Made by a program: the position numbers and the translations under genes | From: an uncultured Bacteroidales bacterium | GTDB lineage: Bacteria; Bacteroidota; Bacteroidia; Bacteroidales; UBA11471 | DNA length: 64,000 bases | Assembly: GCA_947589325.1 (NCBI GenBank) | Contig: CANQAM010000003.1 | Location: forward strand, 80,959 to 144,958 | Reading direction: 5' to 3' | Notes under the pieces: generated by a model | The model's input: the letters and a program-made list of their open reading frames with translations, nothing else | Told to the model about the DNA's origin: nothing | Database searches by the model: none | In this document: piece by piece, positions 1 through 47,704 of the stretch | How the letters are laid out: the number at the start of each line of letters is the position of its first letter | How positions within the stretch are numbered: the stretch's first letter is position 1

Positions 1-57
1 GAAAAAAGTCAAGCCGCGCCGTCTTGTTATAAGGTGGATTTGTCGGGATTGAAGTAA
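1..57 (+). CDS. C-terminal fragment of an unidentified protein
   Basis: The first 57 bases read open in frame 1 for 18 codons, ending ...VDLSGLK and a TAA stop. The gene would converge on the SGNH gene and share the hairpin at 79-112 as a bidirectional terminator. Nothing identifies the family. The only support is the open frame, its natural-looking composition and the placement of the stop before a terminator, so it could be a chance reading. Confidence 0.35.
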   Translation, partial: EKSQAAPSCYKVDLSGLK

Positions 58-72
58 GCGCGTATCGAGGGA

Positions 73-114
73 TAAAAAACACACGGGGCGGGAGATTTCC
101 CGCCCCGTGTGTTA
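73..114 (-). terminator. intrinsic terminator of the acyl-transfer cassette
   Basis: A 14-bp G+C-rich stem (arm ACACGGGGCGGG against CCCGCCCCGTGT, extended by one AC/GT step) with a short loop is followed on the minus strand by a run of six T. It lies 20 bp past the SGNH stop codon. It is near-identical to the terminator at 4643-4684, with one fully compensated base-pair change in the stem. Confidence 0.85.
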
Positions 115-154
115 TGCGGTTTCGGCTTGCCGGATTATTGGGCGAGGGCGTCGG
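73..154. repeat. 82-bp direct repeat, copy A
   Basis: This is nearly identical to 4643-4725, with about six differences including one indel in an A-run. It contains a terminator hairpin, a conserved 20-bp spacer and the final codons D-A-L-A-Q-stop of a minus-strand gene. Copy B belongs to the thioredoxin-like gene, so copy A appears to be a captured end joined to the SGNH gene. Confidence 0.9.
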
Positions 155-1064
155 TTTGTTCCTCTATGTCATTACAGAGAATTTTTGTGAATTTTTCTGC
201 TCCGATGTCCGATAGATGATTACTGTCCTTAAAGTCTTCGTCTGTAAATCGGGAATCGTCCAAATAATCAAAATACATTGTCTCCTCGTTTTGTTTCAGA
301 AACCGTGTGATAAGTTCGTGCATTCTTGCAAATTGCCGGCTGTCGATAAGATTGCGGTAGGAATACCATGCGGGTGTCGTAAAAAGCACGAGTTTTATTT
401 CTCGTTGTTTGCAGTCGTCGGCAATGTGTTGCAGAATGGCGTAGTTTTTTTCGGAGATTTCCACCGCTTCTTTCCATTTTTTACGTGTGTGAGTACGTAC
501 ATCTTCGTTAAGCATTTGTAGCGGATTTTTATGTTTCAACTTGTAATTTGTTGTCCACCCGTATTTGTCGTATCCTATGTCTTCGAGCGGAAAGAAGAAA
601 GCACGAACTTTCGCGCCAAAAGTTTGCAGGTCGAAAAATTCAAAATTGCTGTAAAATGGTTTGGCGGGATAGTCCATATACAATTTGTAAAAAATCAATT
701 TTTTTGAATCAACTCCCATATTTTCGAAGAAAAAAGTCGGATAAGATATCGGGATAAGCAGCATTTTTAATTGGGGACAATCGAATTTTTGCCACAGAAA
801 ATAATCCATGTCGAGTGTTTGCCCGTAATTAGCGAGATTGAATGTTATACCGAAAGTATCCTTATCCATCATGTCGGGTTTGACCGCAGCGTATGAGTGT
901 GAAGTTCCTAAGATAAGAGTATTCACTTCGTTATGATGGGCTTCCATCCATTCTTCTTTGTAGCGATATGCATTCGGCACTTGTCGGACAAGCCATTCGC
1001 CGACACCCAAGACAGTGATAACAGGGAGCAGCACAGCTGCAATATATATCAGAAAATGTTTCAT
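135..1064 (-). CDS. SGNH-hydrolase/DltD-like protein, acyl transfer partner of MBOAT
   Basis: A 309-residue protein with one N-terminal membrane segment (residues 4-24) and an exported SGNH-like domain. Block I is G-T-S-H-S with the candidate nucleophile at Ser55; block V is D280-x-x-H283. Proteins of this kind (DltD, AlgJ/AlgX relatives) work outside the membrane with an MBOAT channel to place acyl groups on a polymer. It is the last gene of a five-gene operon, 24 bp after the MBOAT gene. The final five residues, DALAQ, and the downstream terminator match the end of the thioredoxin gene at 4706, so the natural C-terminus was probably replaced. The family is fairly sure; the acyl donor and acceptor are inference. 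Confidence 0.75.
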   Translation of the reverse strand: MKHFLIYIAAVLLPVITVLGVGEWLVRQVPNAYRYKEEWMEAHHNEVNTLILGTSHSYAAVKPDMMDKDTFGITFNLANYGQTLDMDYFLWQKFDCPQLKMLLIPISYPTFFFENMGVDSKKLIFYKLYMDYPAKPFYSNFEFFDLQTFGAKVRAFFFPLEDIGYDKYGWTTNYKLKHKNPLQMLNEDVRTHTRKKWKEAVEISEKNYAILQHIADDCKQREIKLVLFTTPAWYSYRNLIDSRQFARMHELITRFLKQNEETMYFDYLDDSRFTDEDFKDSNHLSDIGAEKFTKILCNDIEEQTDALAQ

Positions 1065-1088
1065 TTTTTTGAATATAATTTACCGGAA

Positions 1089-2513
1089 TTAGAATTGAAA
1101 ATAGATGAACTGTCCGCCGCTGAAATTCCCGATAAAAGCAATAAGGAGCAGAAGCAGCAGGCTTGAACATATATAGGCAGGCAGAAAATGACGCGCGGCG
1201 AATGATTGGGCTTTGCCGTATTCTACGGAATATTCGATGCAAAACAGCAGTCCGACACTTGCTATTGCACGCTTGGGGAGGATAGACGGTAATGTTATAT
1301 CGGAGAAATATGTAAAGATGCCTTTTATAATGTGCCAACCATCATTGATGTTGTCGGCACGGAAGAATACGAGGGCTAACATGACCAGCAGGAACGTTAT
1401 TACGCGATTTGTCCATATCCACCACGCTTTGTTGCGGAGTCCGTAGCGTTTTTCAAAACGTTTTTGGGCGCGTGCTTTGAGAGTACAGATTACGAGATAG
1501 ATGCCGAAGATGCTGAAACAGACTACATAAGTCCAATTGGCACCATGCCAAAATCCGGAGAGAAAAAAGGTGAAAAAGATGCAAAAACACCATCGGGCAA
1601 GGCTTGTACTGCTGCCGACAAGCGGATAATATATATAATCCATAAACCATGTAGTCAGTGAGATATGATTCCTTTTCCAGAATTCCTGCACCGAGGTGGA
1701 AAAGAAATAAGGGCGTAGAAAGTTGTCCATCAAATGAAAGCCCATTACCCGAGATGCTCCGATAGCAATATAAGAATAGCCTGCGAAATCGCCATACAAT
1801 TGAAAGCAGAAGAGAAAGGCTGCGAGAAACATGTCCGTAGGAGTTGCCGATTCGAGACCGTCATGGATTGTATTTATGACAAGAGCGCAGTTGTCTGCCA
1901 CTACTAATTTTAGAAAGAAGCCCCAAAGCATCAAGTGAATACCTGTAATAGCGCGGTCGCCGTCGAAACGGTGGTGTTCCCGAAATTGCGGGAGCAGGCT
2001 GGTGGAGCGTTCGATAGGACCCGCCACCAACTGGGGAAAGAACGAGACAAAAAGCGCATAGGTCGGAAAGTCTTTCTCTACCGCAGTCGTGCCCCGATAG
2101 ACATCGATGGAATATCCCAATGCTTGAAACGTGTAAAATGATATTCCTACGGGCAGAAGCACATTGAATTCAGGTACGTTCATAACCACTCCGAATAATG
2201 CCATGAGTTCGGAAAGATTCTCTGCCGCCCAATTGAAATACTTGAAGAAAAAAAGAATAGATAGATTGGCAACTGCGGAAATGATGAGAAAAGTACGTGC
2301 ATACTTTCGCCAACGGTCAATGCCTATTGCTGCGGTGTAAGTGATGACCGTGCTTGCCAATAGCAGCAAGGCATAGACTGGCTCCCAGCACATGTAAAAG
2401 TAGTAACTTGCCGTGAGGAGGAAAATATTTCTCCACCGATCGGAACGAATCCCAAAGTAAATGATGCAAACAATGGGGAAAAACAGTAGAAATTCAAGTG
2501 AATTAAATAACAT
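1089..2513 (-). CDS. MBOAT-family membrane O-acyltransferase (AlgI/DltB-like)
   Basis: A 474-residue polytopic membrane protein. The MBOAT signatures are clear: F-W-K-R-N-H-I-S-L-T-T-W around His283, and G-F-W-H-G-A-N with the invariant catalytic His323. Length and layout match AlgI/DltB/PatA-type acyltransferases, which move an acyl group across the cytoplasmic membrane to a secreted polysaccharide or similar polymer. It sits 4 bp after the KAS III-like gene and before the SGNH gene. The DltB parallel is suggestive because DltB takes its acyl group from a small carrier protein and this operon encodes one. Acceptor unknown; no glycosyltransferases are visible in the window. Confidence 0.88.
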   Translation of the reverse strand: MLFNSLEFLLFFPIVCIIYFGIRSDRWRNIFLLTASYYFYMCWEPVYALLLLASTVITYTAAIGIDRWRKYARTFLIISAVANLSILFFFKYFNWAAENLSELMALFGVVMNVPEFNVLLPVGISFYTFQALGYSIDVYRGTTAVEKDFPTYALFVSFFPQLVAGPIERSTSLLPQFREHHRFDGDRAITGIHLMLWGFFLKLVVADNCALVINTIHDGLESATPTDMFLAAFLFCFQLYGDFAGYSYIAIGASRVMGFHLMDNFLRPYFFSTSVQEFWKRNHISLTTWFMDYIYYPLVGSSTSLARWCFCIFFTFFLSGFWHGANWTYVVCFSIFGIYLVICTLKARAQKRFEKRYGLRNKAWWIWTNRVITFLLVMLALVFFRADNINDGWHIIKGIFTYFSDITLPSILPKRAIASVGLLFCIEYSVEYGKAQSFAARHFLPAYICSSLLLLLLIAFIGNFSGGQFIYFQF

Positions 2514-2517
2514 AGGT

Positions 2518-3516
2518 TTAGAATTTTAGAATAGTTCCGCCCCAACTCAGCCCTACACCGAATCCCGCTATCATGACATTCATACCTTTCTGAATGCGTT
2601 TTGTGTCCATACACTCTTTTAAGGCGATAAATACGGAGGACGATACCGTATTTCCCGTCGTGGAAAGATCTACGTAAAATCGGTCTTTGTCGATGACACA
2701 CACTTTGCGGAGGGTATCGAGCATAAATTTGTTGGCTTGGTGAAATACGTATAAATCTATCTCATTTGCTTCCATGCAATTTTTTTGTAGCACTTGCTGC
2801 CTCATTTTCGGAACTGCATCGAGGGTGAAATTGAAGATAGCTCCCCCGTTCATATAGAGATAATCGTCATGTTTTGTATGTCCTTCTTCGTCGGTCGTTG
2901 CATACCCTGTTTTTTCCCTCATGCGCGCAGCCCCTGAGCGGACAATAAGATATTCTGCCCCTTTGCCGTCAGTACCTAACACGAAATTGCCGATTTCCGC
3001 TTCACCCTCCGCAGAGATTAAGCAGGCAGCAGCCCCATCGCCGAATATGGAACGGTTGCTCTTATCCGAGTGATGAAGATATTTGCTGTATGTTTCTGCG
3101 GTGAGCAACAATACGTTGTTTGCTGTTCCGCTCGAAATCAGTCCTTTGGCGAGCGCTAATCCGTAGATGCACCCCGAACAGCCGAGGTCGTAGTCGAATG
3201 CGCCGGCTGTGGTCGGTATGCCCAACCTGTGTTGAAGCAGGCAGGCGGTCGAGGGTAAAAAATAGTCCGGACTTTGGGTGCAAAGCATCACGAAATCTAT
3301 TTCACGGGGTGAAATAGCATATTCGGCGAATAGTTTTCGTGCCGCTTTTTCAGCGAGGTCGCCCGCCGTTTCATTTTTGCCGGCAATATGGCGTGATGAC
3401 ACGCCGACTTTCCGTATTATTTTCTCTGCGTCCCATTCAGGAAATTCCTCAACAAGTTTTGAGACGGATTCGATTTTTTCAGGAAGCCAGTAACTTATTC
3501 CTTTAATATAAGCCAT
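2518..3516 (-). CDS. 3-oxoacyl-ACP synthase III-like enzyme of the acyl cassette
   Basis: A 332-residue thiolase-fold protein with the complete FabH triad: Cys113 in L-G-C-S-G, His259 in F-H-Q-A-N and Asn289 in T-T-G-N-T. FabH-type enzymes condense an acyl-CoA with malonyl-ACP. A separate housekeeping fabH lies at 46709-47704 beside rpmF and yceD, so this copy is probably dedicated to the cassette. It overlaps the SDR gene by 14 bp, implying translational coupling. With the SDR and carrier it could make a short 3-hydroxyacyl-ACP. Chain length is not predictable here. Confidence 0.85.
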   Translation of the reverse strand: MAYIKGISYWLPEKIESVSKLVEEFPEWDAEKIIRKVGVSSRHIAGKNETAGDLAEKAARKLFAEYAISPREIDFVMLCTQSPDYFLPSTACLLQHRLGIPTTAGAFDYDLGCSGCIYGLALAKGLISSGTANNVLLLTAETYSKYLHHSDKSNRSIFGDGAAACLISAEGEAEIGNFVLGTDGKGAEYLIVRSGAARMREKTGYATTDEEGHTKHDDYLYMNGGAIFNFTLDAVPKMRQQVLQKNCMEANEIDLYVFHQANKFMLDTLRKVCVIDKDRFYVDLSTTGNTVSSSVFIALKECMDTKRIQKGMNVMIAGFGVGLSWGGTILKF

Positions 3517-4276
3517 TGTTTATTAGGCTATTTGCCCCCCCCGTTATTTTTACGTTGCTTCCGGTCATCCATGCCGACGCTTCCGACAACATATAGACAG
3601 TTAAATAGGCAATATCCTTAGGAGTGCCGTATCGTTTCAGCGGGTATCGTGCCTCGTCTGCTTTCAAGGCTTCTTCTGTTACGGCTCCTTTGAATATCAG
3701 TCCGGTACGAACCATTGCCGGACTTATGCAGTTTACCCGAATGTGGCGTGGCGCCAATTCTACCCCGAGACAGTTTGCATACGAGATGATAGCTCCTTTC
3801 GAGGCACTGTATACGGCATTTCCCATGGAGGGGGATTCGGCGGCAATGGAAGCAATGAATACGATGGAACCTTCCCGATTCATTTTCTTTTGTCTGAGAA
3901 TCTCGGCTTGCAGCATGACGGGGGCTTTGAAATTGGTATTCATGACCTCGTCGATGTCGTCTTCTCTCAATTCACGACATGGAATGCGCTGTCCGATACC
4001 GGCACAATGCACGATACCGTCGAGACCGGGTAGCATTGATACGGCATCTTTTACCGACAGGGCGTCTGTCAAATCGGCGGTTACAATACGATGTTCGCCC
4101 TCTTTCATCAGAGCGATTGTTTCGGCAAGGCGCGTTTCATTTCGTCCATTGAGAATTACGCTTGCTCCGGCTTGTGAGCAGGCAATGGCAATTCCCTGTC
4201 CGATACCCGATGATGCACCGGTAACGAGCACTTTCCTCCCTTTGAGCGTAAAGGGATTGTAAATACCTTCGTTCAT
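3503..4276 (-). CDS. short-chain dehydrogenase/reductase, FabG-like
   Basis: A 257-residue classical SDR. The nucleotide-binding motif T-G-A-S-S-G-I-G is at residues 19-26, with catalytic Ser141 and Y-S-A-S-K (Tyr154, Lys158). In this operon it plausibly reduces the 3-oxoacyl-ACP made by the KAS III-like enzyme to 3-hydroxyacyl-ACP, using NAD(P)H. It overlaps the upstream carrier gene by ATGA (4273-4276) and the downstream synthase gene by 14 bp. It could alternatively act on a sugar or another small substrate, because SDR sequence alone does not give the substrate. Confidence 0.85.
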   Translation of the reverse strand: MNEGIYNPFTLKGRKVLVTGASSGIGQGIAIACSQAGASVILNGRNETRLAETIALMKEGEHRIVTADLTDALSVKDAVSMLPGLDGIVHCAGIGQRIPCRELREDDIDEVMNTNFKAPVMLQAEILRQKKMNREGSIVFIASIAAESPSMGNAVYSASKGAIISYANCLGVELAPRHIRVNCISPAMVRTGLIFKGAVTEEALKADEARYPLKRYGTPKDIAYLTVYMLSEASAWMTGSNVKITGGANSLINNGLY

Positions 4277-4500
4277 TTATTGGAAACTATACGGAACAAA
4301 TCTGCTACTGTACTGCATGAGCGAATCTCGAGTCCTGTAATTTCTTTTCCGTAGATGGTTTTGACAAAGGCGATGATACCCATTGCCGTTAGGGAACTCC
4401 AATCTTCAAGTTCCTGAAACTTTGTGTCCGGTTTTATTTCCGACGGATCCGTATCGTCGAATTGTTCTGCTAATTGTTTGATGAATTCGTGGATATCCAT
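4273..4500 (-). CDS. acyl carrier protein
   Basis: A 75-residue acidic four-helix carrier protein. The phosphopantetheine site is the D-W-S-S-L-T motif, with Ser36 preceding Leu37 as the attachment residue. It is the first gene of the cassette, so it is expressed in step with the synthase, reductase and acyltransferase. A housekeeping acpP normally sits near fabF, which is not in this window, so this is likely a specialised carrier delivering the acyl group to the MBOAT protein, as DltC does for DltB. The start is fixed by the short leader from the promoter at 4556-4586. Confidence 0.85.
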   Translation of the reverse strand: MDIHEFIKQLAEQFDDTDPSEIKPDTKFQELEDWSSLTAMGIIAFVKTIYGKEITGLEIRSCSTVADLFRIVSNK

Positions 4501-4555
4501 GCTAAAAAGTCTTTTACAATGAGTCCTTTATATTGTTGTATTTTCAAATACGCGG

Positions 4556-4586
4556 CAAAGATAATATTTTGCACATTGTTGGCAAA
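4556..4586 (-). promoter_or_regulatory. Bacteroidales promoter of the acyl cassette
   Basis: On the minus strand, TTTG (4583-4586) is followed after exactly 19 nt by TATCTTTG (4556-4563), a perfect match to the Bacteroidales -33/-7 consensus. Transcription would start near 4549, about 50 nt before the carrier-protein ATG. Confidence 0.85.
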
Positions 4587-4642
4587 GAATAATTATTATT
4601 TTTTACATTTTTATAGATTACTCTAATATTGAGAGTGAGGGG

Positions 4643-4684
4643 TAAAAAAACACACAGGGCGGGAAATTTCCCGTCCTGTGTGTT
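4643..4684 (-). terminator. intrinsic terminator of the thioredoxin-lipoprotein gene
   Basis: A G+C-rich hairpin (ACACAGGGCGGG against CCCGTCCTGTGT, one G-U pair) followed on the minus strand by seven T. It separates the thioredoxin-like gene from the acyl cassette, which therefore depends on its own promoter. Confidence 0.85.
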
Positions 4685-4725
4685 ATGAGGTTTCGGCTTG
4701 CCGGATTATTGGGCGAGGGCGTCGG
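4643..4725. repeat. 83-bp direct repeat, copy B
   Basis: Partner of 73-154. Here the repeat is in its presumed original setting: the last codons of the thioredoxin-like gene, a 20-bp spacer and that gene's terminator. The two copies bracket the whole five-gene acyl cassette. Confidence 0.9.
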
Positions 4726-46708: not shown

Positions 46709-47704
46709 TCATTTGTGGTCGTAGCCCCAGACGAGATATACCGACCCCCAGATAAATCCGGCGCCGAAAGAGGTGAGGATTATTTTGTCGCCTTTTTTGA
46801 ATTTGTCTTCCCACTCGGCGAGGCACAACGGTATGGACGCTGCGCTGGTATTGCCGTATTTGTCGATGTTTACCACCACTTTTTCGCGGGCGATGTTCAT
46901 GCGGTCGGCAATGGCTTCGATGATGCGCAGGTTTGCCTGATGCGGTATGAACCAGTCGATGGAATCGACCGAGAGCCGGTTGCGTTTGAGCATGTTTTCC
47001 GACACGTCGAGCATCGACGATACGGCGTATTTATACACCATACGACCCTCCTGATATACGAAGTGTTCGCGGTTGGCAACCGTTTCGTAGCTGGCGGGAC
47101 GCACCGAGCCGCCGGCTTTCATGTGCAGGTAGGGGAGCCCCACGCCGTTGGTGTGTATATCGGTGTCGATGACGCCCACGCTTTCGTCGTCGGTGGCCGT
47201 AACAAGCACGGCACCGGCTCCGTCGCCGAAGAGCGGACAAGTGGAGCGGTCTTGGTAGTCGGTCATCGACGACATTTTTTCGGTGGCGACCACGATGATT
47301 TTCTTGCAGATGCCGCTCCGTATGTAAGCCGCGGCGGCTTGCAGCGATACGATGAAGCCCGAGCAGGCAGCCTGTATATCATAGCAGAATGCGTTGTTGA
47401 TGCCGGCTTTCAGCGAAATAATCGAGGCTGTCGAGGGGAAGCGGTAGTCGGGGGTGGAGGTGGCGCAGATGATAGCGTCGATTTCGTCGGGATTCGTATG
47501 CGTTTTCCGCAAAACTTCTTTCACGGCTTTGGAGCCCATTTTGGAGCTTCCCAGACCTTCGCCTTTCAGTATATGGCGCGTTTTTATGCCTACGCGGGTG
47601 GTTATCCATTCATCGGTCGTATCGACCATTTTCGACAAGTCGTCGTTGGTGAGAATATCTTCGGGGACGTAAGAGGCGACACCCGCTATCATTGCATTTG
47701 CCAT
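46709..47704 (-). CDS. fabH: beta-ketoacyl-ACP synthase III
   Basis: A 331-residue enzyme that starts fatty-acid synthesis by joining acetyl-CoA to malonyl-ACP. The triad is visible: Cys in A-C-S-G-F, His in P-H-Q-A-N and Asn in G-N-T-S-A. The ATG at 47704 (MANAMIAG) is the first ATG; the frame opens with TTG upstream. It sits downstream of yceD and rpmF, an arrangement often kept near fatty-acid genes. The second KAS III at 2518 is much more diverged. Confidence 0.95.

Follow-up and report, generated by a model that had tools for sequence, protein, structure and literature searches.

Dlt, the Gram-positive system of DltA, DltB, DltC, DltD and DltX, combines a carrier protein, a membrane-bound O-acyltransferase (MBOAT), a tyrosine shuttle hexapeptide and an SGNH transferase. 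It is treated as the sole MBOAT-SGNH pathway with a carrier-borne acyl group, the others being thought to use acyl-coenzyme A (acyl-CoA) (PMC12148441). Among these others, the O-acetylation systems PatA-PatB, AlgI-AlgX/J and WssH-WssI pair an MBOAT that has a C-terminal FXYXXF motif with a separate SGNH protein, and in PatA this acyl-shuttle motif has been demonstrated to be acylated (PMC12148441). Acetyl-CoA is taken to be the donor in these systems, which lack a carrier protein. Here we describe an operon in which an MBOAT-SGNH pair is preceded by genes for an acyl carrier protein (ACP), a short-chain dehydrogenase/reductase (SDR) and a beta-ketoacyl-ACP synthase III (KAS III), a set that we call the triad. 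The operon lies at one end of a 64,000-nucleotide stretch (the window, in which all positions are given) of contig CANQAM010000003.1, from the 2.35 Mb draft genome of an uncultured gut Bacteroidales bacterium.

Dedicated acyl supply has been described for the cytoplasmic acylation of sugars. In Flavobacterium psychrophilum, the genes wfpC/D/E/F with wfpG encode a dedicated ACP, KAS and ketoreductase whose predicted product is a hydroxyacyl group of a surface glycan, namely 3,5-dihydroxyhexanoyl on Qui2NAc4N; this system has two KAS and uses a PglD-type enzyme (PMC6519341). In Pseudomonas syringae, the vioS, vioR, acp and vioB genes of flagellin glycosylation act on viosamine, and the acyl group is likewise supplied by a KAS III, a reductase and an ACP (PMC3927599). 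The operon described here has the ACP, KAS III and ketoreductase of this sugar N-acylation module. It differs in that the wfp genes serve N-acylation of a sugar nucleotide, with no MBOAT or SGNH protein, and in that VioB acts in the cytoplasm on dTDP-viosamine, whereas no cytoplasmic N-acyltransferase or amino-sugar genes directly adjoin the window operon.

Like Dlt, the operon encodes its carrier (ACP, with Ser36) together with MBOAT and SGNH genes. It differs from Dlt in that the acyl group would be made by KAS III and SDR rather than activated by DltA, in that the shuttle motif is fused to the MBOAT, and in its Gram-negative host. The operon, which consists of the five genes only, contains no DltA, the rest of the genome not having been searched for one, and there is no DltX, because the 4- and 24-bp gaps around the MBOAT gene leave no room for it and the motif is already part of the MBOAT. 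The MBOAT scores 141 bits against the DltB equivalog model TIGR04091, for which the cut-off is 375. Thus, the cassette is Dlt-like in logic, as the first-pass annotation of this DNA had put it, but is not a member of the Dlt family. By all features tested (the MBOAT histidines, FXYXXF and the SGNH Ser-Asp-His residues) it is an MBOAT-SGNH pair. We propose, with a probability of roughly 0.6, that it is an operon for surface O-acylation that supplies its own acyl group, which passes from ACP to a carrier-adapted MBOAT, to Tyr471 of that protein, to the SGNH protein and finally to a surface acceptor.

A triad-linked MBOAT clade remodelled on the donor side

In a FastTree phylogeny of 55 MBOATs, the 14 rows (12 distinct) of the triad-linked type form a single clade with support of 1.0. 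The 41 others fall outside it, and we counted among them a canonical MBOAT that lies downstream of the triad at locus L061. Nineteen residues are almost invariant among the clade members but uncommon in the other MBOATs, and every one of them falls within residues 270-381. Asn282 stands where 41 of the 41 other MBOATs have Trp, Tyr296 where 39 have Ile, Ser302 where 40 have Arg and Phe333 where all have Gly; Met291 and Phe336 mostly correspond to Lys/Arg and to His, respectively, Thr287 is also specific to the clade, and there is an insert near residues 343-353. Ordinary Bacteroidales MBOATs read W-H-I-S-L-S and PLGGNR, and the cassette MBOAT N-H-I-S-L-T and YPLVGSS. Outside this segment, clade-to-sister identity is close to sister-to-sister identity (0.83 versus 0.85 over residues 121-160, and similarly over the first 270 residues); inside it, clade-to-sister identity is 0.41-0.47, below the 0.52-0.69 seen between sister and distant sequences. 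The catalytic His283 and the His323 of the WHG motif are invariant in the alignment, FIYFQF ends the window protein and every clade member, and the predicted model (predicted local distance difference test, pLDDT, 88.8) has DltB as its best PDB match.

When 295 genomes of the class were searched with a profile of the segment, no other protein carrying it turned up; the window protein scored 258 bits and the next sequence, with canonical residues, 118 bits. Recombination from another known MBOAT lineage was considered as the source of residues 270-381 and set aside, as the profile found no such lineage; therefore, remodelling or an unsampled donor remains. Because the linked loci had been gathered through the KAS gene, a test from the MBOAT side matters: clade members occur in 3 of 393 Bacteroidales genomes (G000, G005 and G061, two of the proteins being near-identical), always beside the triad. 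Neither 399 genomes of one Bacteroidales family nor plasmid records yielded any, the best match in the latter reaching 44%.

We mapped the segment by aligning the MBOAT sequence to DltB, with the DltB contacts taken from the literature (PMC11035591). It covers the catalytic His region, the DltC-docking helix and the tunnel that leads into the active site. N282 aligns with Trp288 of DltB, beside the catalytic His289, and T287 with the gate residue Ser293, while Y296 and V299 align with the DltC contacts Met302 and Val305, positions that are mostly Ile and Gly in other Bacteroidales MBOATs. The clade has lost basic residues that are canonical near the cytoplasmic entrance (K/R291M, R302S), and the net charge of residues 290-313 goes from +2.4 in other MBOATs to -0.25. 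In the cytoplasmic hairpin at 338-366, which holds the basic insert, it goes from +3.4 to +6.7; the ACP has a charge of -6. We infer from these alignments that the clade may have lost the CoA site and gained a site for a carrier protein.

Recurrence of the block

When 84,980 species genomes were scanned with the KAS sequence, 80 loci were recovered, and in most of them the triad lies inside a polysaccharide cluster. Among 42 such loci that lack an MBOAT, the triad is preceded by a hexapeptide transferase gene in 23 cases and by a GNAT gene in 6, and DegT aminotransferases, flippases and NeuB are among the products encoded downstream of it. On its own, the triad is a widespread module for sugar N-acylation in the polysaccharide clusters of Bacteroidota, and its arrangement is known; the variant with MBOAT and SGNH genes beside it is the new part, and our paper searches found no description of it.

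ACP and KAS genes together with an MBOAT of this one type occur at 12 distinct loci, the window (L035) and 11 others in Bacteroidales (L034, L044, L048, L056, L061, L067, L071, L073, L077, L081 and L086). Since the core is seen at 11 other loci, the arrangement is not a matter of chance. The SDR is present in 8 of the 12, being missing from L071, L073, L077 and L081 and displaced in L086, and the ACP gene of L077 lies 2.5 kb upstream. About five of the loci are in sugar clusters (L048, L056, L067, L071/L077), and the rest stand among housekeeping or unrelated genes. The remark in the first-pass annotation that no polysaccharide genes adjoin is therefore true of the window and does not extend to the block as a whole. 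The same annotation suggested that the block be sought in other genomes, with the caution that it might prove to sit mostly in glycosyltransferase clusters of known product. The triad alone does occur mostly in polysaccharide clusters; the block with the MBOAT does not have that distribution, and no known product is attached to it. The KAS tree requires seven changes of MBOAT context. We do not claim that the MBOAT clade recruited the triad independently, given that an approximately unbiased (AU) test does not reject a single clade (p 0.28, 0.42).

Some loci show further arrangements. At L061 (2752-13032), one triad is surrounded by three MBOAT genes with SGNH partners in two orientations. At L048 (14951-17009), the MBOAT-SGNH block and two acyltransferase-3-like genes are closely followed by a second carrier set (ACP, KAS, SDR). 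L043 (9351-10999), where the SDR is broken, and L049 (10001-11005) have KAS genes of the family but no MBOAT or sugar genes, and these KAS genes are probably decaying or stand-alone copies.

SGNH partners

The profile of the SGNH family matches AlgX (8.8e-6) and DltD (0.003), and Ser55, Asp280 and His283 are conserved or nearly so in the alignment. The predicted model (pLDDT 86.9) matches SGNH enzymes, among them PatB (8tlb; Z 12.8, root-mean-square deviation 3.3, 171 residues aligned) and DltD (3bma; Z 12.5, deviation 4.7, 238 aligned). The SGNH partners of the clade MBOATs are highly diverse, and those of L073 and of the clade MBOAT at L061 are 58-69% identical to SGNH proteins of ordinary MBOATs (L148, L153, L010). 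These identities suggest that the MBOAT may determine the donor and the SGNH protein the acceptor, SGNH partners being interchangeable.

Three more MBOAT-SGNH pairs, none with acyl genes, are encoded in the window genome (L010, L011 and L012). L010 and L011 have nearly identical MBOATs and clearly different SGNH partners, again a conserved MBOAT with a varied SGNH protein; the MBOAT gene of L012 contains an internal TAA.

Acyl-supply genes, operon boundaries and insertion site

Ser36 of the ACP lies within LEDWSSLTAM, and the motif W-x-S-[LMIVF] is found in nearly all related ACPs. The first-pass annotation had pointed to a carrier lacking phosphopantetheine as evidence against its proposal; the serine is kept, and an AcpS-type transferase is encoded in the same genome. 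The Cys-His-Asn residues of KAS III do not vary across 79 aligned rows, and the top PDB match is 3gwa (8e-100). In the triad KAS III family, the position of the CoA-stacking Trp of FabH is occupied by Lys in 77 of 79 rows, and that of a FabH Arg by Lys36, which is invariant. The FabH that this genome encodes at about 46733-47695 has both the Trp and the Arg. Judged from these substitutions, starter binding may differ from that of FabH.

All five predicted genes are present on the minus strand, in a unit that runs with its promoter and terminator from position 4586 down to 78 (table 1). The ACP and SDR reading frames share 4 bp and those of SDR and KAS 14 bp, while KAS and MBOAT are separated by 4 bp and MBOAT and SGNH by 24 bp. 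Upstream lies TTTG-N19-TATCTTTG, which we take to be the Bacteroidales promoter consensus; the pattern occurs six times in the window against 0.86 expected by chance. Because this promoter and a terminator downstream of the SGNH gene enclose them, the five genes form one closed transcription unit, as had been supposed at the outset. The ACP, SDR, KAS and MBOAT exceed their Pfam cut-offs, and the fifth gene has a weak match (DUF1574) under the cut-off.

Table 1. Positions in the window of the operon and its flanking elements
Feature	Positions	Strand	Basis
Bacteroidales-type promoter TTTG-N19-TATCTTTG, perfect match	4556..4586	-	Pattern search
ACP, 75 aa; phosphopantetheine Ser36 (codon 4393-4395)	4273..4500	-	Pfam PP-binding 21.8 bits, cut-off 20.8
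SDR, FabG-like 3-oxoacyl-ACP reductase, 257 aa, intact YSASK	3503..4276	-	Pfam PF13561 9.7e-51; FabG-type NCBIfam models
KAS III, 332 aa; Cys113-His259-Asn289	2518..3516	-	NF006829 269 bits, cut-off 249
MBOAT, 474 aa; His283 and His323; clade found only beside ACP/KAS genes	1089..2513	-	Pfam PF03062 6e-17
Remodelled MBOAT segment, residues 270-381, all 19 clade-specific residues	1371..1706	-	Alignment/tree comparison
C-terminal FIYFQF acyl-shuttle hexapeptide (FXYXXF), Tyr471	1092..1109	-	Motif compared with PMC12148441
Membrane-anchored SGNH-fold transferase, 309 aa; Ser55, Asp280, His283	135..1064	-	Alignment, profile matches, predicted fold
Intrinsic terminator, strong, 16-pair stem	78..113	-	Hairpin downstream of SGNH gene
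Direct repeat copy A: tlpA-like gene tail and terminator, fused to SGNH gene end	67..154		92% identity to copy B
Direct repeat copy B: end of neighbouring tlpA-like gene and terminator	4637..4725		92% identity to copy A

The operon is flanked on one side by tlpA, thiL, pnp and lpxK; an ATPase-like gene adjoins it on the opposite side. The nearby lpxK had raised the idea of lipid A modification, which we dropped since the order pnp-thiL-tlpA continues in relatives of the genus that lack the cassette. The cassette looks like a recent insertion or replacement, because in several genomes of the genus without it a second tlpA-like copy sits at this site, beside the first. The 88-bp direct repeats stand on both sides of the cassette, the SGNH and TlpA-like proteins have a C-terminal DALAQ in common, and the GC content of the cassette is 44.8%, against 51.5% for the window.

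Proposed pathway and alternatives

In the pathway that we propose, AcpS would place phosphopantetheine on Ser36 of the ACP, KAS III would join a short starter to a malonyl unit, and the SDR, or the housekeeping FabG where the SDR is missing, would reduce the product to a short 3-hydroxyacyl-ACP. With one condensing enzyme and no dehydratase, the group would most likely be 3-hydroxybutyryl. The donor-adapted MBOAT would dock the ACP on the cytoplasmic side and pass the acyl group to Tyr471 of its own FIYFQF shuttle, from which the periplasmic SGNH protein would take it on Ser55 and esterify a surface acceptor. This is essentially the route from carrier to MBOAT to SGNH protein first suggested for these genes, and the triad-specific clade, remodelled on the donor side, makes it the best-supported reading; the identity of the acyl group, direct transfer from ACP to MBOAT and the acceptor are what we infer rather than see directly.

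Several observations weigh against this proposal. It is drawn from the genes and from comparison of their sequences and predicted structures. Ile306 and Met309 of DltB have no clear counterpart in the MBOAT, and the remodelling of the segment may reflect the acyl group and not the carrier. The MBOAT-side sample is small, with three clade members in 393 genomes. At L061, the gene for the clade MBOAT is oriented divergently from the triad, and the MBOAT downstream of the triad is the canonical one, which is co-directional and ends in SIYSNF, a degenerate FXYXXF. Finally, a 3-hydroxy group is not certain, as 4 of the 12 loci lack the SDR.

The L061 arrangement also bears on a different explanation, namely that the triad and the MBOAT-SGNH pair are independent modules sharing an operon, the triad feeding an N-acyltransferase elsewhere and the MBOAT using acetyl-CoA in the manner of AlgI and PatA. 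The usual place of the triad beside cytoplasmic acyltransferases in sugar clusters, and the frequency of Bacteroidales MBOAT-SGNH pairs without it, would fit such independence. Yet the triad-adjacent MBOATs are one clade, the donor-side region is remodelled only there, with loss of the canonical basic residues near the entrance, and no N-acyltransferase or sugar gene is directly beside the window operon. We regard this explanation as unlikely.

To a similarly small degree we allow for the same pathway carrying another group, either acetoacetyl or a 3-hydroxyacyl group built on a longer, branched or acyl-ACP starter. The loci without an SDR would accord with the former, although the housekeeping FabG could stand in, and the two lysines of the triad KAS III, at positions where the genome's own FabH keeps Trp and Arg, with an altered starter. 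However, there is a single KAS here, whereas the C6 group of F. psychrophilum is made with two (PMC6519341). It is less likely still that the clade MBOAT takes a 3-hydroxyacyl-CoA or other soluble thioester, with the ACP serving synthesis only and a transacylase step between. In its favour, acyl-CoA is the donor for PatA, which represents the MBOAT-SGNH systems in vitro (PMC12148441); against it, the operon has no transacylase or thioesterase gene, and a protein donor would better suit an MBOAT that has lost basic residues and gained a basic insert.

If surface O-acylation from a carrier is indeed the function, the operon would be a Gram-negative counterpart to Dlt. Whether it constitutes a second carrier-protein-dependent MBOAT-SGNH pathway, evolved independently of Dlt, with a donor-specific MBOAT lineage, a dedicated KAS III and ACP, and interchangeable SGNH proteins that place 3-hydroxybutyryl or related esters on the surface of gut Bacteroidales, seems to us evenly balanced. 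The donor-side residues can be read from the comparison of 12 linked with about 40 other MBOATs, and therefore donor recognition can be tested by mutation. The pattern of partners suggests a modular code, with the MBOAT specifying the acyl group and the SGNH protein the acceptor, and the operon may supply the surfaces of gut commensals with hydroxyacyl esters that would escape standard O-acetyl assays.

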